Positions 9,075 to 62,755 of a DNA stretch of 64,000 nucleotides are shown one piece after another; the first letter of the stretch is position 1; the number at the start of each line of letters is the position of its first letter. The position numbers and the translations under genes were made by a program. The DNA comes from Tateyamaria sp. ANG-S1 (lineage in GTDB: Bacteria > Pseudomonadota > Alphaproteobacteria > Rhodobacterales > Rhodobacteraceae). The stretch covers positions 124,001-188,000 of the forward strand of contig NZ_JWLL01000009.1 of NCBI RefSeq assembly GCF_000814025.1. The letters are read 5' to 3'. The notes below the pieces were generated by a model. It worked only from the letters and a program-made list of their open reading frames with translations. It was not told the DNA's origin and ran no database searches.

Positions 9075-10202
9075 TCACATCCCGCCTGACTTTGAGTCCG
9101 CGATGAGTTGCGCAACCCGATCCCGCAAGGTTGGCGGAATTGCATCACTGTTCAGTGACAAAAAGCCCTTGATGACAAGACCGCGCGCTGCATCTTCACC
9201 GATGCCGGTGGCCATGAGGTAATTGAGTTTTTCGTCATCAATGATACCAACACTGGCCTCATGGCTCAGCATGGCGCCCTCGGCACGGGCCTTGAGTTCG
9301 GGAACTGCCACAATATCACCGCGATCTGTCAGCTTCAGCCCATCGCATCCAAGGAACCCGCTGCTGCCCGCAGCATCGCCAACAAGGCGTGCGACATTGA
9401 TGATGGTCCCCCCGGCTGCAACCATACGCGCCAAGTCTTCGGATGTGGCGCCCACACCCAGCAGATGTGTCTCCGTTTCAATCCGACGTTCGGTGCCATC
9501 CGGGGCGAAAACGATGGCCTGACTTGTGGATTTTGCACCTGCCGCCAGCCTAGAAACAGACAAGCTGACGCTGCGCGCAATAGGTGCCATCATAACGGAC
9601 GTCGCTTGGCTCTGCGCATCTTCGTCGAGCTTTGCGTAGCCATAGGAATGCACCTCCATTCCTTCACCCCAGTGCTCAATCGACACCGATTTGCATGAAG
9701 AGCCTGCGCGCATGTAACACTCACCAATGGAGATATGGCGTCCCTTGTGCACGATGTGTGGCACTGCGGCACCCGATATCATCTCGACCTCCGCGCCCTC
9801 GTCGATCAGCGTGATATCGTGCGTGAATTGCCGCGCCTGAGGCGTTTCCAAAATGGTGAAACTCTGCACCGGCAAAGTCACCTTGGCACCCGGTTTGACC
9901 CAGATGAAATGGCCAAGCGGATCGTGCATATGCTCGGCCACCTTGGCAACATGCTCATTCTCATCAGGTGCAACGAGGCCGAACATGAGGTCCTGAACGA
10001 AATCATAGGTCCGAAGCGCGTCGGCCAGGGGCATGATTTCGACACCGGCATCGCTGGAGCGCGCGATACGCATGGCACGATCAATCAGGATACCTGTGGC
10101 AGCCCGTTTCGATTGATCATCAAACCCTACATCGTACAGGATATTCCGCTGAGAATTGCTCAGGTCCTGCGCGGTGGAAACGGAGTGTTCGGTCGGGATC
10201 AT
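9075..10202 (-). CDS. SufB/SufD family Fe-S assembly scaffold (short, SmsB-like)
   Basis: 375 residues, shorter than the usual proteobacterial SufB (about 480-500). The SufBD core is clear: a central beta-helix region, GFLGCDGLKL with a cysteine at the position of the E. coli SufB catalytic Cys, and SHEASVGIIDDEKLNYLMATGI, matching the SufB His-Glu motif and C-terminal helices. It is the second gene after sufC, 29 bp downstream, and no sufE, sufS, sufA or sufD lies nearby. Known minimal systems of this CB type (SmsCB/archaeal SufBC) assemble Fe-S clusters with one scaffold. Since Rhodobacteraceae normally carry a full suf operon, this is probably an additional system. Role beyond Fe-S assembly is unproven. 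Confidence 0.85.
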   Translation of the reverse strand: MIPTEHSVSTAQDLSNSQRNILYDVGFDDQSKRAATGILIDRAMRIARSSDAGVEIMPLADALRTYDFVQDLMFGLVAPDENEHVAKVAEHMHDPLGHFIWVKPGAKVTLPVQSFTILETPQARQFTHDITLIDEGAEVEMISGAAVPHIVHKGRHISIGECYMRAGSSCKSVSIEHWGEGMEVHSYGYAKLDEDAQSQATSVMMAPIARSVSLSVSRLAAGAKSTSQAIVFAPDGTERRIETETHLLGVGATSEDLARMVAAGGTIINVARLVGDAAGSSGFLGCDGLKLTDRGDIVAVPELKARAEGAMLSHEASVGIIDDEKLNYLMATGIGEDAARGLVIKGFLSLNSDAIPPTLRDRVAQLIADSKSGGM

Positions 10203-53720: not shown

Positions 53721-54270
53721 ATGAGCGAACGCGCGGCGTCCTGGAACCGCAGTGACCTGGAGGTGCAGGCGTTGCAATGGGGCAAAGGTGTCAGCCCTGA
53801 TCAGATCCTTGCGGAAGTGGATCGCCGCATCGACGAGGGCAGCCTCTTTGTGACGGACGCGCACACCATCACCGACAAAGCGTCCGTCGCCTTGGAAAGC
53901 TCGATCCTGATGACCTTCCACGCCGCAAAGGAGACACCTGCCCTCGACCTGGCGACGGAACCAGATCGCACACCTGAGGCGTTGCTTGCACGGCGCCTTG
54001 CTGTTTCTCGCACTCTGACAGAGGGACAAAAAGAGGCGATCACAACGTCGCTCACGGGTGCAGGGCGCTATGTCGGGGTGCAAGGCTTTGCAGGAACCGG
54101 CAAGACCTTCATGCTTGAGCGCGTCAACGCCTATGCAAAAGAGAGCGACTATGAAGTGGCGGGCTATGCGCCGTCCCACCAGGCTGTCTCTGAGTTTAAG
54201 AGTGTTCTCGGCGATGCTGCCACCCTGGCCAGCTTGATTGCAGCTGAACGTCATTCGCCTGAATGCAGCT
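53721..54270 (+). pseudogene. Truncated conjugative relaxase/helicase (TraA/MobF type)
   Basis: The frame opens at 53721 in the middle of a TraA-type protein and keeps its pattern for about 180 residues: LAEVDRRIDEGSLFVTDAHT, RLAVSRTLTEGQKEAITTSL, and the helicase Walker A VQGFAGTGKTFMLERVNAYA, then VAGYAPSHQAVSEFKSVLG. After about residue 180 the sequence becomes unrelated and Arg-rich. Relaxase catalytic N-terminus and helicase C-terminus are missing. This marks a conjugative element that was deleted where the peptide-modification island now begins. Confidence 0.78.
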
Positions 54271-54376
54271 GTGGTATGCACATCTATCGGCGGTGTGCAT
54301 GTCGCTCGCGAACTGGATCGGATTGCCGAATTGCGCGGCTAAGTGTCTACTGGTTGAGACGTTTTTTGGAATTGCC

Positions 54377-55381
54377 TCAAAGAGCGCGTGCTAGTCTGAC
54401 GGCCGCATAGGTATCTCCACGCGCGCGTCGCAAGCCCAAAATCGGAATATTTTCCAAGCTGCGCGAAAGAGTTGCGTCACTTGATCGACCCACATCCAGA
54501 AACTCTAGCCAAGCTGGACGGACATAGCCTTGGCAGTCAACCAAAGCTTGCCGAAGAACGTCATCATTTAAGCTAAGCATGGACAACGTGCCTCCTTTTG
54601 GCGCCGTCGCATCAAAGGCGCAGACAACAATCGCGCTTAACGCACCGCTTAGAATGATCCGCTCAGGCAGCAACGAGGCAACCTCCGACAGATATATGCG
54701 CGTCTTTCCGTCATCCCCATAGCCGCGCCCGATACTTGCCACCAAGCCGCGTAGTTCAGCGTGCTGCTGGACCGTTCCGAAGCCGATCCGCAGCGTCTCT
54801 GGCAGCGCGACAACCTGAGCGGGAGTCCCGGCCTTTAGCAGAACATGGTCATTGGCAACAAACGACCAATTCTGGGAAAGAACAAAATCCATACAAAGGC
54901 TTGTTTTACCTGCACCTTTGGGGCCGACGAAGGCAACAATCTGCCCGTCGTGAAACACTGCCGAAGCATGCAATTCTCCCCCACCCGCGGCCAGTATACG
55001 AGCCTTAAGCGTAGTTGAGATCACCCGGTAAAGCGCCACAAATGCAGGCAATGGCCCCGCAGGTAGTGACAAGGTGATCCGGGTCGGTGACCTACAGGTC
55101 ATCGTCATCGACTGGCAACCCCAGGTCGGGACTTCCCGCTGCAGGCGCTTGCCGAAGATCGCATTTTCGCCAATGCCGAACATTGGTTCGGTTCCTGGCT
55201 CCCAAACGTCGGGCGCCTCGCTGACAGAGAGTTCAATCGTCAAATCTGCGACCCGGTCGGTTTGCTGCGCCCAGGAGTTTTCGGTTTCCTGCTGGATGAA
55301 AGCGACAAGCTCAGGGTCTGCATTCGATACATCGAACCGCAGGCCGCCAACTTCGAATGGTACTACCGCTGTATGGCTCAT
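54377..55381 (-). CDS. HPr-kinase-like peptide/protein kinase
   Basis: 334 residues from the ATG at 55381, overlapping the methyltransferase stop by 4 bp. The N-terminal 120 residues are a HprK-related accessory domain (VPFEVGGLRFDVSNADPELV). The C-terminal domain has an HprK-type P-loop (IVAFVGPKGAGKTSLCMDFV) followed by FVANDHVLLKAG, corresponding to the conserved acidic/His part of HPr kinases. Relatives phosphorylate serine residues of RiPP precursors such as the C-terminal Ser of some lasso peptides. Here the polyserine peptide at 59.7 kb is the obvious candidate substrate. Last gene of the five-gene leftward operon. Confidence 0.8.
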   Translation of the reverse strand: MSHTAVVPFEVGGLRFDVSNADPELVAFIQQETENSWAQQTDRVADLTIELSVSEAPDVWEPGTEPMFGIGENAIFGKRLQREVPTWGCQSMTMTCRSPTRITLSLPAGPLPAFVALYRVISTTLKARILAAGGGELHASAVFHDGQIVAFVGPKGAGKTSLCMDFVLSQNWSFVANDHVLLKAGTPAQVVALPETLRIGFGTVQQHAELRGLVASIGRGYGDDGKTRIYLSEVASLLPERIILSGALSAIVVCAFDATAPKGGTLSMLSLNDDVLRQALVDCQGYVRPAWLEFLDVGRSSDATLSRSLENIPILGLRRARGDTYAAVRLARAL

Positions 55382-56139
55382 TTTTCGAAAACCAGATGTA
55401 GAAAGGCAGGCGCAACATTGCGCCAACGCCGCAGATGCCCATTCTGCGCTACGGCTTCGGCACTAGGTACAGGTTCATGCAGTGCACTAAGCCTGAGACC
55501 TGCGGACAGAAAAGGTCGCAGGGTGTCTTCCAGCGTCCGCTCCTGCCGCTTAACCGAAAATCCGGCACGACCCGCTTCCCGCGCTGTCTGAAACCTGACC
55601 ACGCCGGGCACATCAGACCGAGAGGAATATCGAAAAAGATTGATAGCATGTGCCCCGTCGCACTTGGCCCATTCCATTCCGCCATGACTGAAACATGGGT
55701 GCAGCAGAGCCAAACATAGACGACCGCCTGGCCGCAAAGCGCGCTCTGCACCAAAAGCGACCGGCTCGAGACGTCGTGTGCTCATTAGCAGCATGAAGCC
55801 TACGATCAGATCCGCGCTTTCGCGCTGCTGCAACGCAAACGGCGCGTCCGCACACACGACATCGTATCGAATGTTTGGTGCGGCGTTTTCTCTTTGCGCC
55901 GACACTATCATTTTGCGCGATGTATCCAGCCCGGTGACCCGAGAGGCGTGGGTTGCAAGACGGCGGGTCATCGCTCCGTTCCCGCATCCCAAGTCAATCA
56001 CATCACGGCCATCAAGCGGACCCAGCAGGTCTACGAATGCAGGCCAGTTGTACTCCTCGCGGACCCTATCAAACCCCGCGTTGAGCTGTCTGCTCCAGTC
56101 GTCTGCGGCAGTATCCCAGTCTGTTGAATCTGCGCACAT
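55378..56139 (-). CDS. SAM-dependent methyltransferase, class I
   Basis: 253 residues from the ATG at 56139, which overlaps the glycosyltransferase stop by one base (TAATG). Motif I VIDLGCGNGAMTRRLA, acidic post-I VTGLDTSRKMI, and VVCADAPFALQQRESADLIV are the standard SAM fold. The C-terminal third (RALRPGGRLCLALLHPCFSH; GFSVKRQERTLEDTLRPFLS) resembles UbiE/MerR-type small-molecule methyltransferases. In this operon it may methylate a sugar, phosphate or carboxyl group of the product. Confidence 0.87.
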   Translation of the reverse strand: MCADSTDWDTAADDWSRQLNAGFDRVREEYNWPAFVDLLGPLDGRDVIDLGCGNGAMTRRLATHASRVTGLDTSRKMIVSAQRENAAPNIRYDVVCADAPFALQQRESADLIVGFMLLMSTRRLEPVAFGAERALRPGGRLCLALLHPCFSHGGMEWAKCDGAHAINLFRYSSRSDVPGVVRFQTAREAGRAGFSVKRQERTLEDTLRPFLSAGLRLSALHEPVPSAEAVAQNGHLRRWRNVAPAFLHLVFEK

Positions 56140-56945
56140 TAAAGCTGTCCAGCCGCCACTTGATAGGATGCCTTCCACAGCACATCCGCTTCGGACAATG
56201 GGGTATGCAGATGCCATGGCTTTGGCCGCTTCTCCTCGCGCCCTGCCCAGTGCACCAGACGAATGAATGGCCTTAGCGCCTGGAAGTCTTTGTCATCGTC
56301 CAGTTCCGGATGACCGGCGATATACATGAAGTTGTAAATCTCCGGTAAGGTCTCTACCCGAAGGTCCGAATGGCACTCGAGATATGCATTGATCAAGGGT
56401 TGATCCGCCCAATACCCTCCCGCATCGCTGTCGAGACGCAGCATCTCGTCCGCAACGCTCTCTGACAAAAGCCGCGAACCAATAACCATTAGTCCCGAGT
56501 TGAAGTGCCCAGCCTTTGGCCTTCGACAAGGCACCGCCGCAAAGTCACAGTCAAGAAACAGCAGCTCGCTCAGATCTCCTAGGCAAAGCGTATCGCTGTC
56601 CAAGTAGATTACCCGTTCGACATCTGTCTGGCGGAAGCTTTCCAGAGCAAGGAAGGCAGGCCTGTGCTTATCCGCTTCCAAAGCCTCGTCATAGGCGTCG
56701 CGCCAAAGGCAGTCGACGAAAGTGACGTTTTCATGCCGCGTCAAAATGCGCGCGCGCGCGTCGTCACTCACGCGTGCGTGATCCTGATTCTGCAAGATTC
56801 GGACAGGCAATTGCGAGAAGCCTGACATCTTAGCACCAAGCGAGTGAAGCAATGTCTCGAGGCCAGGTAAAAACCGGTCGTCGCATACGGTGCAGATCGC
56901 TGCGCGTGGGGTTCGAATGCCAAGCGGGCGCATTGTGTCGATCAT
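56139..56945 (-). CDS. Glycosyltransferase, GT8-like
   Basis: 268 residues. GT-A fold with DxD at VIYLDSDTLCLGDLSELLF, AAVPCRRPK, and HFNSGLMVIGSRL, the GT8 (LPS galactosyltransferase/glycogenin-like) set. WADQPLINAYLE and LVHWAGREEKRPKPWH complete the family end (HxxGxxKPW-like, here HWAGREEKRPKPW). Retaining transfer of a sugar from a nucleotide sugar is expected. ATGA overlap with the upstream ATP-grasp gene. In context it may glycosylate the modified serine peptide. Confidence 0.85.
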   Translation of the reverse strand: MIDTMRPLGIRTPRAAICTVCDDRFLPGLETLLHSLGAKMSGFSQLPVRILQNQDHARVSDDARARILTRHENVTFVDCLWRDAYDEALEADKHRPAFLALESFRQTDVERVIYLDSDTLCLGDLSELLFLDCDFAAVPCRRPKAGHFNSGLMVIGSRLLSESVADEMLRLDSDAGGYWADQPLINAYLECHSDLRVETLPEIYNFMYIAGHPELDDDKDFQALRPFIRLVHWAGREEKRPKPWHLHTPLSEADVLWKASYQVAAGQL

Positions 56946-57739
56946 GACGGCTGTACCAATGGTGTTGTAACAGGACGCGATTGAAGCAGAGTTAGGTATT
57001 CCTCACCGGTCCGTGTGTCATCGGCGAAAGCGAACTCTATGTCGTGCCGCAGCCCGAATTCCGCATCATGGCGCAGGGCCACCTCCAGAAGCGCATCGAT
57101 ACGTCGAGGGGGCAGTATGCGGCCATCCTCACCTGAAACCATCCGTGCACCTGTAAGACGGTCGACCACCGTCTTGACCATCGCGTAACCATCTACAACC
57201 TGCCGACACGCACCATATGCGGCCTCGATCCGGACTTGCGACGGGTCACCTGTCAATGGATCGCAGGTAAACAACACTCCAGAAACAGTTGGATGAATCA
57301 TTTCTTGCAAAATCACCGTACCTTCGCTGTCGTCGTTCGGTGGGCTGGCAGCGCGTTTGCGATAGGAACGAAGACTGTCGCATCTAAGACTGTCAGCCAC
57401 CCTACGCATTGCGCGCAGTATTGCGCGTCGGCCGGTGACATTGAGAAGGCTTAGGCCAAGTCCCGCACCCGCCGCCCCTGCGGTATCCTCAAGCACCGAA
57501 CTCGATCGGACAGCCAGGGGCGCAGAGTTCATCCTATCCGATATGAAAGCTTCGGCGGCGCGACCCAGATTATCCTCGCGGGCAGCCGCCACATCATCGG
57601 TAGGTACAATCGCGAAATCCGGTGTGGTAAATCCGCGATGCCGCAGTGCCAGGAGGCCTGCGGCTTTTCCGCCCAAAGTGCGCCAGCAAGAAGTCCGCTG
57701 AGCAAAGTAACAATCAGAGATGGCAACAGTCTGGTGCAT
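56942..57739 (-). CDS. PEP-synthase/rifampin-phosphotransferase-type ATP-grasp subunit
   Basis: 265 residues forming only the PPDK_N ATP-binding domain: TLGGKAAGLLALRHRGFTTP with the nucleotide Lys, LAVRSSSVLEDTAGAAGAG, VILQEMIHPTVSGVLFTCDP and EYLTLLQSRPVT. The swivelling phospho-His domain is on the separate upstream gene (6 bp gap). In rifampin phosphotransferase both are one chain: ATP phosphorylates the His, which then passes the phosphate to a hydroxyl. So this is half of a split dikinase. Confidence 0.85.
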   Translation of the reverse strand: MHQTVAISDCYFAQRTSCWRTLGGKAAGLLALRHRGFTTPDFAIVPTDDVAAAREDNLGRAAEAFISDRMNSAPLAVRSSSVLEDTAGAAGAGLGLSLLNVTGRRAILRAMRRVADSLRCDSLRSYRKRAASPPNDDSEGTVILQEMIHPTVSGVLFTCDPLTGDPSQVRIEAAYGACRQVVDGYAMVKTVVDRLTGARMVSGEDGRILPPRRIDALLEVALRHDAEFGLRHDIEFAFADDTRTGEEYLTLLQSRPVTTPLVQPS

Positions 57740-57745
57740 TGCCGT

Positions 57746-59566
57746 TCAGTCCTTCTTGTCCAATAGGTTGATTCTTCCTGTCTTGCCGTCGATCTCCACC
57801 ATTTCGCTGGGTTGAAACCTGGTCATCGCGTCCGGTACACCAATCACTGCGGGCTTGCCGAACTCACGGCACAGGATCGCGGCATGGGACAGCACGCCCC
57901 CGTACTCACAGATTACGCCTCCAATGCCCGACAGGCTGACGCACCAGGACGGCGGCAAAATACTGCAAACGACTATAGCGCCTTCGGGCGCGTGGCTGAG
58001 ATCTTCAGCACACGTGGCAAAGTAAAGCGGCCCGCGCACAACACCAATCGAAGCTCCTTGTCCGCAGATCGTGCCCCCGCGTTCTGAAACTTGTCTCGCC
58101 GCAGCGACATTTTTATCTGTGATACCGAACAGGCAGATCAGTATGGGGTCGCTGATATGATCCGGTACGTCGCCGAGGAAGCGTTCCGGCGGACGCGCTG
58201 CCTCGTAGCGCGCCATTGCGCTGCGAGCGCGATCCAGTCGGTCTGTCCAGTATTGCGGCCGAGCACTTTTCGTTCCAGCCGCCCAATCAGCAGCTACTTC
58301 ATACAGCATTTCACCTAGAGACCAACGATCCAATAGAACGATATCATCAACCGAATCCAACCATCCCAAATCGTGCAAGACCCTCCCCAAGGCCCGCAGA
58401 CGTCGCCAAAACACAGCCTGAAAACGATGCTCAATGTATAGGTTGTGGTTCTCCAGATACGGCGTCACCCGCCGCGCGCGATCATAGGCGGCCTCAAAGC
58501 GCGTTCGCATCTCTGAATTGTCGATCAGCGAAAGGCTGCGCGACAAGATCTCTGCCGGGTCAGGTTCCTGTTTGTCTAACTTTGGCCCCCGGCGAAGCGC
58601 GTCCTTTATTCGGTCCAGAATGATCGACGGGTGGTCATTCCAGACCTTGTCGAAATACGAAAAGCCGATGCCGTCAGAATAGTCGAACCAATCCGCCCGC
58701 GCTGCATCAAGCTCGGCGCACCAAAGGCCGGTGTTCCGGTCTTCCTCACCGCGGACGGCAATCGCCTCAAGGCTTTCCGCTTTCAGCACCTTATCAACAA
58801 GCTCCAAGCGCTCCGCCAAACGCGCAAGAGCGTCGATTTGCCGTTGCGGCTCGTAAAGCTCCAGATCTCCACAACGGAGCAACGTATTGACTGTGGCTGG
58901 ATCGGCCGACGGAAACGCTTGCTCAAACACTTCGGAAAACTGCAACAACGCTAGATAGCCGATGTTGAGCAATTCGAAATGGTACTGGTATGCTTGGAAC
59001 AGCCCCTCCACTAACTTGGACAGAAATTGGCAAAGATCGTGTCCTGACGATAGGCCACCTCCATCAAGTGCCCGGCCCTCATTTTCCAAGTCGTCAAGCC
59101 TTGGCAACGGTAAATGATTGAGCGACGCAATGAGGCTATTCACTTTCAGGCGCCAGTTGCTCTCGTAGTCCTCAAAACGCTCAAACATATGCGCGGTGCG
59201 TTTTTCGAAAACGGGTGCCCGCCGGTCAGCTTCTGCCGCATGCGGCGGCGCGACCGGTGAGAAATAGACGCGCCCGTGGTGCACGCGGATGTCGAGGCCG
59301 TTGGACATAGGAAAGGCCAGCATCCGTGTATTGACCTGCCCCAGACCAAGTTTGATCGCCTCCGGCACGATTGCTTCGAATGGGTAGATGGGACGAGGGT
59401 GATGTACATCTTCGCGGAACCAAAAGACGTCCGCATCAATACCTTCGAGATCGAGATTCAGATGTCGTGTGTATACGTCGTCAAATGACCGCGACCACGT
59501 CCCGGAGCTTTGTGAGGTGAAGATCGCATTTTTGTTTGTCTGAGCCATGGCCTCACCATGGCGCAT
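57746..59566 (-). CDS. Substrate-binding plus phospho-histidine subunit of a split dikinase
   Basis: 606 residues (600 from the alternative ATG at 59548). Residues 1-500 form a helical region without close known domain, comparable in position to the drug-binding domain of rifampin phosphotransferase. The C-terminal 90 residues are the PEP-utilising mobile domain: IVVCSILPPSWCVSLSGIGG and YGGVLSHAAILCREFGKPAV with the phospho-acceptor His at about 561. The partner ATP-grasp subunit is encoded 6 bp downstream. First gene of the leftward operon, divergent from the polyserine precursor. Its specific substrate is not known; a serine-rich peptide or a sugar are candidates. Confidence 0.82.
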   Translation of the reverse strand: MRHGEAMAQTNKNAIFTSQSSGTWSRSFDDVYTRHLNLDLEGIDADVFWFREDVHHPRPIYPFEAIVPEAIKLGLGQVNTRMLAFPMSNGLDIRVHHGRVYFSPVAPPHAAEADRRAPVFEKRTAHMFERFEDYESNWRLKVNSLIASLNHLPLPRLDDLENEGRALDGGGLSSGHDLCQFLSKLVEGLFQAYQYHFELLNIGYLALLQFSEVFEQAFPSADPATVNTLLRCGDLELYEPQRQIDALARLAERLELVDKVLKAESLEAIAVRGEEDRNTGLWCAELDAARADWFDYSDGIGFSYFDKVWNDHPSIILDRIKDALRRGPKLDKQEPDPAEILSRSLSLIDNSEMRTRFEAAYDRARRVTPYLENHNLYIEHRFQAVFWRRLRALGRVLHDLGWLDSVDDIVLLDRWSLGEMLYEVAADWAAGTKSARPQYWTDRLDRARSAMARYEAARPPERFLGDVPDHISDPILICLFGITDKNVAAARQVSERGGTICGQGASIGVVRGPLYFATCAEDLSHAPEGAIVVCSILPPSWCVSLSGIGGVICEYGGVLSHAAILCREFGKPAVIGVPDAMTRFQPSEMVEIDGKTGRINLLDKKD

Positions 59567-59747
59567 CCCATCTGGTAGCGGATTGGCAATAGTGCTGCGG
59601 CTGCAAAATCGGCGTCAGATCGCGCATCGTTGAATTGCGCGTTGGCCGATAACTGCGCATTGGGTGGCCCTCGGGACAAGCCTAGTGACAGCCGAAAACC
59701 TAGCCCGTTCTCTGACTGAGAAACCGAAATTGCAAAAGGATGAAAAA

Positions 59748-59951
59748 ATGAAACAAACCAGTTTTGTAGCGGTCGGCCTTGGGCTTGTCGCGGGAGGTCT
59801 GACGTATGCTGACACGGCGCCATTGCAGTCGTTGTCCACGGTTGACATCGCACCGGATGCGTCTTCTGAAGCACCACTTCTGAAAACCGAGGAACGCATC
59901 TATATCGTTGCTTCTGCCTCCTCCTCCTCTTCTTCCTCGTCGTTCGCATAG
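59748..59951 (+). CDS. Polyserine-tailed precursor peptide (candidate RiPP substrate)
   Basis: 67 residues, ATG with AAGGA 7 bases upstream (an earlier in-frame start is not supported). Residues 1-21 look like a Sec signal peptide (MKQTSFVAVGLGLVAGGLTYA). A short acidic spacer follows and the peptide ends in VASA, eight serines (58-65), Phe, Ala. The eight Ser codons are mixed (four TCC, two TCT, two TCG), so the run is kept by selection rather than by repeat slippage. It sits between two divergent groups of genes for a kinase, split dikinase, glycosyl-, methyl- and nucleotidyltransferases. Best reading: leader peptide plus a core that is phosphorylated and further decorated. No cysteine. Confidence 0.75.
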   Translation: MKQTSFVAVGLGLVAGGLTYADTAPLQSLSTVDIAPDASSEAPLLKTEERIYIVASASSSSSSSSFA

Positions 59952-59969
59952 CTTGCATCTGGCAAAAAA

Positions 59970-59998
59970 GTGTCGGGCCTGGATTGGCCCGACGCACT
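59970..59998. terminator. Hairpin between precursor and nucleotidyltransferase genes
   Basis: GTCGGGCC (59972-59979) and GGCCCGAC (59986-59993) form a perfect 8-bp stem with a 6-base loop, 20 bases past the precursor stop. On the plus strand only GTTTG follows, so termination would be partial; on the minus strand it is followed by CTTTTTT, a proper terminator. A partly terminating hairpin right after a precursor gene is common in peptide clusters and keeps the peptide in excess. Confidence 0.65.
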
Positions 59999-60023
59999 GT
60001 TTGACCCGCTTGGGGACTACACA

Positions 60024-61016
60024 ATGGCTCCGCTTTCTCCTCACCTCCCGCTCGCCCTAGAGGCCCTCGGCAGCTGGGCAACCGGCAAAACGCATATCGT
60101 CGAACTCACGGCGTCTGAGCGCGAGGCGATGGCGCGGTGGCGGATAGAGACCGCATTTGAGGATTTGTCAGCTCCGACAGTGTTTCAAACGCTCTATCGA
60201 GAGGTTTTTCAACGTCAGAAAAAGGCGATCGAAGCCGTGCGTGATGATTTGGCGTATTTGGATGTCGCCTCGCGTTACTACAAGGGTGCCGCAGTCATAC
60301 AGACTGTCCTGAAGGGAGAACCCTTCAGCGTCATGCGCGACATCGATATTCTGGTTCCACCTGAGCGGGCTTCACTGGCGCGCGCACTGCTCCTGCGTCA
60401 TGGCTTTGAACAATCGGATTTCGACATAACAAGCAAAAACCTGCGTTCCACTGAGCCGGCCCGTATTGCTGCTTACGAAAGCGGGAGCTACGAGCTATAT
60501 GCGTTCTCGAAGATTGAGCGCTTCAAAGCTCCGCCGGAGCTGGTTCGATGCCCCGATCTATGGCAACGGGCCCCAATCTGGCTCGACAATGACGAGGTGG
60601 TCCTTTTGATCACCGTTGACGTCCACCTAAGAGCAGCGAACGATATTCCGGTAGAACCTCTCTGGACGGGCTCTCCTGATCGACCCTTTGTCGATCCATC
60701 TGTGGAAGCTTGGCTCTTGGCAACGCGCTATTATCTCGATTTGGTCCGCCAGCAGCCTCGCCCCGTGCTGCGGGATCTTTTCTATCTTGCACGCTTGTTT
60801 CCAAAGGCGGACCTTAGTCGCTGCTTGGACTTGGCGACACGCTACGAGACGCTACCGGCACTTTTCTACACCTACGAAACGCTTCGCCAGTTTGGCATGC
60901 CGGGCGCTCCTATGGATGAACGTTGTCTGACCCTTGGAGATCGGCGAAATGACTTTGGTTGGCAGTATGGTCGTCTGTGCGGGCGGCTGGATGGCCCGCC
61001 CGCCTTTGTCGCCTGA
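60024..61016 (+). CDS. Nucleotidyltransferase family protein (NTP_transf_5 type)
   Basis: 330 residues from the ATG at 60024 (GGGGA 7 bases upstream); a GTG at 59970 lies inside the hairpin. The family core is YYKGAAVIQTVLKGEPFSVM followed by RDIDILVPPERASLARALLL and HGFE, i.e. KG(A)xxxxx...RDIDILV with the two catalytic Asp. Members occur in RiPP clusters beside HprK-like kinases and transfer nucleotidyl or glycosyl-phosphate groups to phosphoserine. The C-terminal region is helical. Same direction as the precursor, so normally expressed with it. Confidence 0.84.
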   Translation: MAPLSPHLPLALEALGSWATGKTHIVELTASEREAMARWRIETAFEDLSAPTVFQTLYREVFQRQKKAIEAVRDDLAYLDVASRYYKGAAVIQTVLKGEPFSVMRDIDILVPPERASLARALLLRHGFEQSDFDITSKNLRSTEPARIAAYESGSYELYAFSKIERFKAPPELVRCPDLWQRAPIWLDNDEVVLLITVDVHLRAANDIPVEPLWTGSPDRPFVDPSVEAWLLATRYYLDLVRQQPRPVLRDLFYLARLFPKADLSRCLDLATRYETLPALFYTYETLRQFGMPGAPMDERCLTLGDRRNDFGWQYGRLCGRLDGPPAFVA

Positions 61017-61031
61017 GGCGAAGCAAACGGT

Positions 61032-61625
61032 ATGACACAAACCTTCTATGTAGTTGTCGACATCGAGACGGATGGCCCGGAACCCGGGACACACGCCATG
61101 CGGAACCTTTCGGCTGTCGCGACGGATGACGCTGGTTTCGAAGTAAGTTCTCTCTCATTGAATCTCATTCCGCCGGACCACACTTTGCCAGACCAAGGAA
61201 CGTTGGAATGGTGGCAGACTGAGCAGTCGGAAATCTGGGAACAGATCACAGCAGACCCGATATCTGCCAAAACTGGAATGGAGCGGTTTGAACGCTTTGT
61301 ACGAGATCTGGATGGCCGGCGGCTATTCGTAGGGCACCCGCTGGCTTTTGATGGGCATTGGGTCAGCCACTATATGGAGCAATACCTGGGACAGGGTCTG
61401 ATGGCGTTTCCGGGGACGGATGATCCGCTGTTTTTTGGTGCGGGTATTGATCTTCCGTCTTTTGTGTCGGGTGCGCTAAACATCGACTACGGATTGTGTC
61501 GGCATGGGCGCTACCCGCCTGAGGTTTCCACTGAGCTTCCGCACACACATCATGGGCTGGATGACGCCCGCGGCCACGCAGACGTCCTGCGCAAAACCAT
61601 CGGGATCCTGAGGCATAGAGGGTGA
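61032..61625 (+). CDS. DEDDh 3'-5' exonuclease (DnaQ-like)
   Basis: 197 residues. First acidic pair in YVVVDIETDGPEPG (D10, E12), a middle LFVGHPLAFDGHWVSHYME (Asp of motif II), and the C-terminal HTHHGLDDARGHADVLRK, which supplies the His and Asp of the DEDDh set. It looks catalytically complete but has no polymerase fused. It overlaps the following gene by 4 bp (GTGA), so the two proteins probably act together. Role in the island unclear: nucleic acid, oligonucleotide or nucleotide-conjugate cleavage are possible. Confidence 0.85.
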   Translation: MTQTFYVVVDIETDGPEPGTHAMRNLSAVATDDAGFEVSSLSLNLIPPDHTLPDQGTLEWWQTEQSEIWEQITADPISAKTGMERFERFVRDLDGRRLFVGHPLAFDGHWVSHYMEQYLGQGLMAFPGTDDPLFFGAGIDLPSFVSGALNIDYGLCRHGRYPPEVSTELPHTHHGLDDARGHADVLRKTIGILRHRG

Positions 61626-62755
61626 GCCTGCGCACACAAGTGGGAAGGTTGGCCGAGGCGGTATCGGCGCATTTGGAACGCCCTGTTTCCGAAAAGATGC
61701 TAGCGCGAGCCCTCAAACAACTCGGCATCTCTTCATGCACGCTTCTATGGGAAGCAGACCTTGCTACAACCTGTGGTCCCCACAATGCGACTTCAGAGAG
61801 CGTCCTTGATCTCCCTAAAGTGACACGGTCGATGATCGCAGGTGAGATCATTCCGGCTTCAATAGCAGTGGCTCTCTGCTCCGCGTTGGTAGAGCTTGAA
61901 AATAGTCCGGCAACTGTCGCCATGTGCTCGCTAAAAGGGCTACGCGGTGTCCTGCACCCCGAACAGGATGAAACGGCGACAATTGGCAGAGCGCTTTTCA
62001 GGTATCGCCAAGCCGCCGGCCTGACCGAAGCGGCGCTACATACGGCGCGGGAGGCGGCGAGTATCGGCACTCATCGGATACTCTTTCTTGGCATGGGCCG
62101 TTTCGACTTAGTCGTCACCGAAAAAGAGGCATATGCTTGTAGGAACGCCTTGGCGTTATGGCCACCGGCGGAGATGATCGCAGCCCAGATGTATTGGAGA
62201 CCGCCTGAGATGGATCGCACACGTCTGTGCCGCGACCCGCGCAACGCCGAGGCACGGTTGCACAAGATAAGGGATCGCAGTTACTTTGCGACCACAGCGC
62301 CCTCCAGCATCAATCTCACAGATCATTGCCTGCCACAGTCCCAATGGCTTACAGGCGCAGCGTTGGATGGCCAGCTGCATGTACGCGACGAGACCGGTCT
62401 AGCGCGCGGGCGCTTGGACATTCGGGGGTGCAGTGCCTTTCTCCGCGGGTGCGGCCCAAAGTTAGCAACTATGCAAACCCGCGGCGCTCTACTTTCCGCG
62501 TTTTTCCGGCAGCGGATTCCGAGAATCTGTGAAGATTGGCCAGACATAGCAGTTCTGTTCAGCGGCACAGACGATGCTATTCTGGAAGGACCATCGTGTG
62601 ACCTTCAGGCTTGTCTGTCAAAGATTTCAAGCGCGGCAAGATCTATATTTGGGATTGAAGCGCATTATTCAGTGGCGCCGATACGGCCAGGCTATCCAGC
62701 GGAGACAGCTCGCGCCGTAGCCAAGGACGCCCGAAATCACGCGCCTTCTGGCTAA
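61622..62755 (+). CDS. Protein with Cas10/GGDEF-like palm domain, function unknown
   Basis: 377 residues from a GTG overlapping the exonuclease stop. Residues 1-255 are not recognisable. Residues 262-377 follow the order of a Cas10/GGDEF palm: first strand with Asp266 (RGRLDIRGCSAFLR), a long helix, the hairpin VLFSGTDDAILEG with Asp317 and Asp318 where Cas10 has GGDD, another helix, then HYSVAPIRPGYP and AKDARNHA matching the S-A-G-I ... K-x-P ... A-K end of those domains. The second Gly of GGDD is Thr. The protein stops just after this segment, close to an IS3 remnant. It may make a nucleotide signal or product, or be an inactive relative. Confidence 0.62.
   Translation: MSLRTQVGRLAEAVSAHLERPVSEKMLARALKQLGISSCTLLWEADLATTCGPHNATSESVLDLPKVTRSMIAGEIIPASIAVALCSALVELENSPATVAMCSLKGLRGVLHPEQDETATIGRALFRYRQAAGLTEAALHTAREAASIGTHRILFLGMGRFDLVVTEKEAYACRNALALWPPAEMIAAQMYWRPPEMDRTRLCRDPRNAEARLHKIRDRSYFATTAPSSINLTDHCLPQSQWLTGAALDGQLHVRDETGLARGRLDIRGCSAFLRGCGPKLATMQTRGALLSAFFRQRIPRICEDWPDIAVLFSGTDDAILEGPSCDLQACLSKISSAARSIFGIEAHYSVAPIRPGYPAETARAVAKDARNHAPSG

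Follow-up and report, generated by a model that had tools for sequence, protein, structure and literature searches.

Within a 64,000-nucleotide stretch of the Tateyamaria sp. ANG-S1 genome (contig NZ_JWLL01000009.1; hereafter, the window), we found a divergent gene cluster in which a putative two-component dikinase, a GT8 glycosyltransferase, a methyltransferase and an HprK-like kinase are encoded on the minus strand, and a small Ser-rich peptide and a nucleotidyltransferase are encoded on the plus strand. The five genes on the minus strand are tightly coupled into one operon. Reading downwards from 59566, they are the large dikinase subunit, the small dikinase subunit, the glycosyltransferase, the methyltransferase and the kinase, with 6 bases between the first two and stop/start overlaps at the three other junctions (ATGA, TAATG, and ATGA). 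Our tentative reading is that the operon makes a small product that carries phosphate, sugar, and methyl groups, and that the Ser tail of the peptide is not the main substrate of the enzymes. We consider such a pathway, to a small-molecule phospho-glycoconjugate, slightly more probable than one that produces a ribosomally synthesized and post-translationally modified peptide (RiPP). The features of the locus are as follows.

54377..55381, minus strand: HprK-like kinase with P-loop GPKGAGKT and residues H138-K159-N177-D178 (family scan, alignment).
55378..56139, minus strand: class I S-adenosylmethionine methyltransferase, its start corrected from 56217 to 56139, where it probably lies (Pfam family, start-site reading).
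56139..56945, minus strand: GT8 glycosyltransferase (Pfam family, solved relatives).
56942..57739, minus strand: small dikinase subunit, the ATP-grasp half (PPDK_N), with RSS..ED, DIE, and Q.RP motifs kept (family, alignment).
57746..59566, minus strand: large dikinase subunit, comprising a substrate domain and a swivel domain with a catalytic-type His (families, alignment).
59748..59951, plus strand: gene for a 67-residue peptide composed of hydrophobic residues 6-18, an ERIYIV segment, ASA, eight Ser, and Phe-Ala (coding signal, no family match).
59970..59995, no strand assigned: strong hairpin between the peptide and nucleotidyltransferase genes (T-tract on the minus strand only).
60024..61016, plus strand: NTP_transf_5-like nucleotidyltransferase with KG...DxD kept; the start is probably at 60024, with an alternative GTG start at 59970 (29.5 bits, alignments).

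Families were assigned by scanning ten proteins (53721-62755) against the Pfam and NCBIfam libraries, and statements below about families missing from the locus refer to these ten. The divergent layout around a small gene, which had been described in a first-pass annotation of the same DNA, agrees with our open reading frame (ORF) and family scans, as does its assignment of a GT8 glycosyltransferase and a methyltransferase, both of which match Pfam families once the methyltransferase start is corrected.

The halves of the dikinase match the PRK08296/PEP-utiliser and PPDK_N families. When they were aligned with three reference pairs (window rows without the first Met), identities were 28-33% over most of the length, and the swivel His (in a GGxxSH context), RSS..ED, DIE, and Q.RP were common to all four pairs. 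The T/S of the published T/SxxGGxxxH swivel motif (as given in the part of PMC12167813 that we consulted) is Cys in the window large subunit. The ATP-grasp domain and the swivel and substrate domains thus lie on adjacent genes with their catalytic motifs retained, and on this sequence evidence the pair belongs with the two-component dikinases of the HpeHI/PpsAB type, a subfamily in which, according to the same part of that paper, small phenols receive phosphate from ATP by way of a swivel-domain His. Like phenylphosphate synthase (PpsAB) and HpeHI, the window enzyme combines an ATP-grasp subunit with a substrate/swivel subunit that carries a catalytic-type His, on adjacent genes. It differs in that its ATP-grasp subunit has 265 residues rather than the 354-375 of the three reference pairs, and in that it has no recognised aromatic-catabolism neighbour and sits instead with GT8, the methyltransferase, and the HprK-like kinase. 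The first-pass annotation had called the pair a two-protein dikinase resembling rifampin phosphotransferase. The same three domain types are indeed present, but they occupy one chain in rifampin phosphotransferase and two in the window, and the pair is closer to PpsAB; for these reasons we rejected a rifampin resistance enzyme.

The large dikinase subunit is 31% identical to an Azoarcus KH32C protein encoded beside phenylphosphate carboxylase genes. A plasmid search with this subunit matched 118 records, 10 of which were covered to at least 80%, all below 60% identity. We examined the neighbourhoods of two of these 10, from Azoarcus KH32C and Rhizobium leguminosarum, and in the latter the dikinase relative adjoins a biotin-carboxylase gene; a third reference pair came from genome G440. 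The small subunit matched 145 plasmid records (83 with 80% coverage, all below 60% identity). Genome counts here and below refer to samples of family, genus, class, or phylum genomes, and the large subunit was present in 2 of 289 class genomes, the window's own included; viral contigs searched with it yielded no relative. The best solved relatives of GT8 by sequence are Skp1 galactosyltransferase (E 2.5e-8) and glycogenin, and GT8 had no match in plasmids.

The description of the last operon gene as an HprK-like kinase held up on its residues, since the protein has the P-loop and His of such kinases, although it falls below the relevant family cut-offs. Pfam HprK does not match it; the NCBIfam model that fits best, HprK_rel_B, gives 31.2 bits where 200 are required, and HprK_rel_A (TIGR04352), with the same cut-off, gives 16.7 bits. 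In a search of the whole genome, the sole HprK_rel_A match at E <= 0.001 lies elsewhere. We aligned the kinase with five others (L007, L010, L033, L034, and L035). The pair N177-D178 is shared with the GAK-type HprK_rel_B kinase (L007) and with a Streptomyces protein (L010); two kinases of the same genus (L033 and L034) have D-D, and a PqqD-system kinase (L035) has D-E. In lasso kinases, His-Lys-Asp-Asp is conserved and mutations support its role (PMC9266682, in the part consulted). The window kinase carries H-K-N-D in place of this lasso-type set, and may nonetheless work like a Ser kinase, as judged from its residues. The shared N-D pair is the one likeness to the GAK system: GAK ATP-grasp, CofD-like, and amphi-Trp proteins are missing from the locus, and the HprK_rel_B score is far below the cut-off.

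Relatives of the kinase are rare. It was found in 1 of 198 family genomes (the window's own) and in 2 of 398 phylum genomes, one of them again its own and the other (G731) a short match of 30% identity beside a phosphatase-like ORF identified by eye. Nine plasmid records matched, none covering 80%, and viral contigs searched with the kinase alignment gave one locus, in which a scan found no Ser-tailed ORF. Among solved structures, a single-sequence search gave 4 weak matches to tRNA methyltransferase, and a profile search gave 205 weak matches, of which the 60 listed were mostly P-loop stretches and included one phosphoenolpyruvate (PEP) carboxykinase and no HPr kinase.

The nucleotidyltransferase had been assigned to NTP_transf_5, and its residues fit: K87, G88, D106, and D108 are invariant in five aligned nucleotidyltransferases. 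Its score against PF14907, at 29.5 bits, lies just under the Pfam gathering cut-off of 31.2; the relatives L006, L013, and L016 score 52.4-52.8 bits. The protein is closer to the L006 relative (E 3e-28) than to a lasso-cluster enzyme of its own genus (E 4e-4). It was present in 1 of 20 genus, 2 of 385 class, and 3 of 349 phylum genomes (the last with a profile), its own included. A single-sequence scan of genome contigs gave no match, a scan with the alignment gave the locus in genome G293 a second time and one other, and neither viral contigs (searched with the alignment) nor solved structures contained a relative.

Four distinct related loci were available for comparison: L006, on a Bradyrhizobium plasmid; L013 (the same as L015), in genome G293; L016, in Streptomyces zaomyceticus; and L024/L025, a near-identical pair from one genus that represents more distant relatives. 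The neighbours in L006 are PEP mutase family, aconitase-like, phosphoribosyl pyrophosphate (PRPP) synthase, and phosphoribosyltransferase genes; G293 has ORFs resembling pyridoxal phosphate enzymes (by eye), L016 a glutamate-cysteine ligase gene, and in L024 a PRPP synthase gene adjoins the nucleotidyltransferase. In L025 (269-5197, reverse complement, genome G631), an NTP_transf_5 gene is followed by PRPP synthase, with two small ORFs and a radical-SAM-like ORF (by eye) before it; the Pfam run for these neighbours was made on the near-identical L024, and the locus is possibly another uncharacterised pathway.

A phospho-glycoconjugate pathway would accommodate these enzymes in the following way, in which we infer both the substrates and the order of the steps. 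The dikinase would move the ATP beta-phosphate via its His onto a hydroxyl, probably phenolic or similar; GT8 would add a sugar and the methyltransferase a methyl group; the HprK-like kinase would add a second phosphate; and the divergent nucleotidyltransferase would add a nucleotidyl or glycosyl group, probably onto a phosphate. The peptide would be a real small protein of the locus whose Ser tail is not what the enzymes mainly act on. What makes us lean to a small molecule is the type of the dikinase, the N-D pair of the kinase, and the proteins to which the nucleotidyltransferase is closest. Several observations weigh on the other side. None of the scanned proteins was recognised as the product of a small-molecule scaffold gene, and GT8 resembles protein glycosyltransferases. 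The kinase, the nucleotidyltransferase, and a Ser-rich gene with a real coding signal share one locus, and the Ser-rich gene stands directly ahead of the nucleotidyltransferase, an arrangement that leans toward a RiPP. In lasso systems, moreover, (poly)phosphorylation of and hexose addition to peptide Ser have been reported, in the parts of the literature consulted, with a kinase and a nucleotidyltransferase acting as a pair.

The RiPP alternative, a possible reading to which we give somewhat less credence, holds that the Ser tail is the substrate, that the HprK-like kinase, the dikinase, or both phosphorylate several of its Ser, that GT8 and the nucleotidyltransferase add sugar, and that the hydrophobic N terminus is a leader. 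The peptide ORF itself reads as a real gene because it has a Shine-Dalgarno-like site (AAAAGGA) ahead of its ATG and codon usage like that of its neighbours. Without the Ser tail, it scores 0.263 bits per codon in a coding test whose training set was long ORFs picked greedily from the window, which may include some on the wrong strand; chunks of real genes have a mean of 0.231, and 133 of 248 are at or below 0.263. Only 2 of 159 shadow ORFs reach that value, and 5 of 159 reach the 0.144 of the full peptide ORF. The eight Ser are encoded by mixed TCC, TCT, and TCG codons, as the first-pass annotation had described, but they are not the C terminus that it took them for: the tail is A-S-A-S8-F-A (ending SSSSSSSSFA), and Phe-Ala comes last.

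The Ser run is unusual by several counts. A run of at least eight Ser is expected 0.00035 times per 1.3 million codons if residues are independent and triplet slippage is ignored. A mechanical scan of the window found five ORFs of 25-400 residues with at least four Ser near the C terminus, the peptide among them, and only the peptide has eight; one 37-residue mechanical ORF (9526-9639, plus strand) likewise ends SSSSFA, probably by chance. The pattern (TCN)8 occurs three times in the 4.4 Mb genome, and the other two sites lie opposite acidic runs of ORFs of 110 and 661 residues, although a 153-residue mechanical ORF reads one of them as Ser. The peptide has no family match in Pfam, NCBIfam, or PHROGs and no plasmid match by BLAST with the low-complexity filter on, and was present in 1 of 198 family genomes, the window's own.

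Several of these properties count against the RiPP reading. The Ser are not terminal, the lasso-kinase motif is replaced by H-K-N-D, and no leader-binding, protease, or transporter family was detected. The start of the peptide looks like an export signal: residues 6-18 (FVAVGLGLVAGGL) are strongly hydrophobic (mean Kyte-Doolittle 2.2), and a Thr-Tyr-Ala/Asp step just past them resembles a signal cleavage site, as judged by hydropathy only, which suggests that the peptide is probably exported or membrane-anchored. A small same-strand ORF also lies directly upstream of the nucleotidyltransferase, at 4 to 120 bases, in all four related loci, a descriptive observation in favour of a RiPP in which three of the encoded proteins appear to be related to one another; these ORFs encode 74 (L006), 75 (L013), about 79 (L016, from an assumed GTG start within a 102-residue ORF), and 109 (L024/L025) residues, and none of the four has a Ser tail. 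When the whole stretches were scanned for Ser runs, none was found in L006, L016, L024, or L025, and L013 had one minus-strand ORF of 34 residues about 3.5 kb away. No second copy of the cluster was found in the sampled genomes, plasmids, or viral contigs, and the locus has no DNA-level match in plasmids. In the open-licence literature, we found neither a polyserine RiPP precursor peptide nor a cluster combining a PpsAB/HpeHI-type dikinase, an HprK-like kinase, and GT8.

A lasso peptide was rejected because the machinery is missing, the kinase has H-K-N-D, and the order of residues is wrong. Like the window, phosphoglycosylated lasso clusters (pseudomycoidin, paeninodin, and L034) combine a small gene containing Ser with an HprK-like kinase and a protein of the NTP_transf_5 type nearby. 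The window differs in that its kinase departs from the lasso-type residues, its nucleotidyltransferase is closer to non-lasso relatives, and Phe-Ala follows the Ser run, where a lasso precursor would end in the modified Ser. No Asn synthetase (cyclase), PqqD, or B2 protease was found, in line with the statement of the first-pass annotation that a lasso cyclase and PqqD are lacking; the same library does detect PqqD and Asn synthetase in L034. That locus (1-7751, genome G488, same genus) is a lasso-type cluster with an HprK-like kinase, NTP_transf_5, PqqD, Asn synthetase, and an ABC-transporter-like ORF. A second G488 locus (L033, 1-4169) has a precursor-like ORF, a kinase, and a PRMT-like methyltransferase, and looks lasso-like by eye, with no cyclase on its 4.2-kb contig. 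The more specific proposal of a RiPP class of its own seems to us unlikely. In it, a poly-Ser tail would receive several phosphates, some of them from a two-component dikinase that had shifted its substrate from small phenols to peptide, and GT8 and the nucleotidyltransferase would then cap the tail with sugar, lasso folding playing no part.

Still less probable is a regulatory or incidental small ORF, either an attenuator-type leader that senses charged tRNA-Ser through its Ser codons or a secreted protein of separate function. A run of a single amino acid that leads straight into a strong hairpin, with a further gene beyond it, would suit the former, and the signal-like start of the peptide is also consistent with such a reading. 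The hairpin close behind the peptide stop codon is real (a 72-base stretch folds at -30.6 kcal/mol, z -3.2). It had been described as partly terminating, but this part of the description is unsupported for the peptide transcript because the terminator scan calls the hairpin on the minus strand only, where six T follow, and finds no forward terminator. A longer fold keeps the same hairpin, with no clear competing antiterminator, and a leader peptide of 67 residues would be a long one.

The least probable reading, by a narrow margin, is that the peptide is a carrier, holding a small molecule during its assembly and letting it go afterwards, a role that small proteins beside related nucleotidyltransferases may also have. 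The small proteins of L006, L013, and L016 look mutually related (E 1e-6 for one pair, 34% identity for another) and are encoded directly upstream of the nucleotidyltransferase; a structure model of one of them (mean pLDDT 67) has the order beta-alpha-beta-alpha-beta and a C-terminal tail of low confidence. The window peptide shows no recognisable relation to them (10-19% when an alignment was forced) and has the look of a low-complexity, exported protein. The recurring pair, a protein of about 75 residues with a SAxIxLxGxRPA-like C-terminal motif and no Pfam match followed by NTP_transf_5, is found at L006:7512-8909 (rhizobial plasmid), L013:10238-11530 (alphaproteobacterial metagenome-assembled genome), and L016:7592-8945 (Streptomyces).

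Outside the cluster, a 229-residue fragment that resembles the middle of a TraI relaxase/helicase (53721-54410) abuts the kinase gene, which suggests a mobile-element setting for the locus. Downstream, 15 bases past the nucleotidyltransferase gene, a DEDDh exonuclease gene and a gene for a 377-residue protein overlap by four bases (61032-62755); the C-terminal part of the latter protein weakly resembles a Cas10/Csm1 palm (FSGTDD). Relatives of the exonuclease occur in 6 plasmid records, and the 377-residue protein has none in the plasmid collection. We rejected the exonuclease as a pathway member because the two neighbourhoods examined among those 6 records were unrelated. A phage-like origin was rejected because none of four proteins tested matches PHROGs, and a defence origin because PADLOC, run on 7 proteins, matches only two, the Cas10-like protein and the exonuclease downstream. 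No known RNA matched Rfam at the gathering threshold between 54000 and 62000.

Should the cluster make a peptide, the result would be a RiPP carrying phosphate and sugar, for which no RiPP core enzyme was recognised. If, as we tentatively prefer, the product is a small molecule, the cluster would carry two-component dikinases beyond catabolism into biosynthesis.

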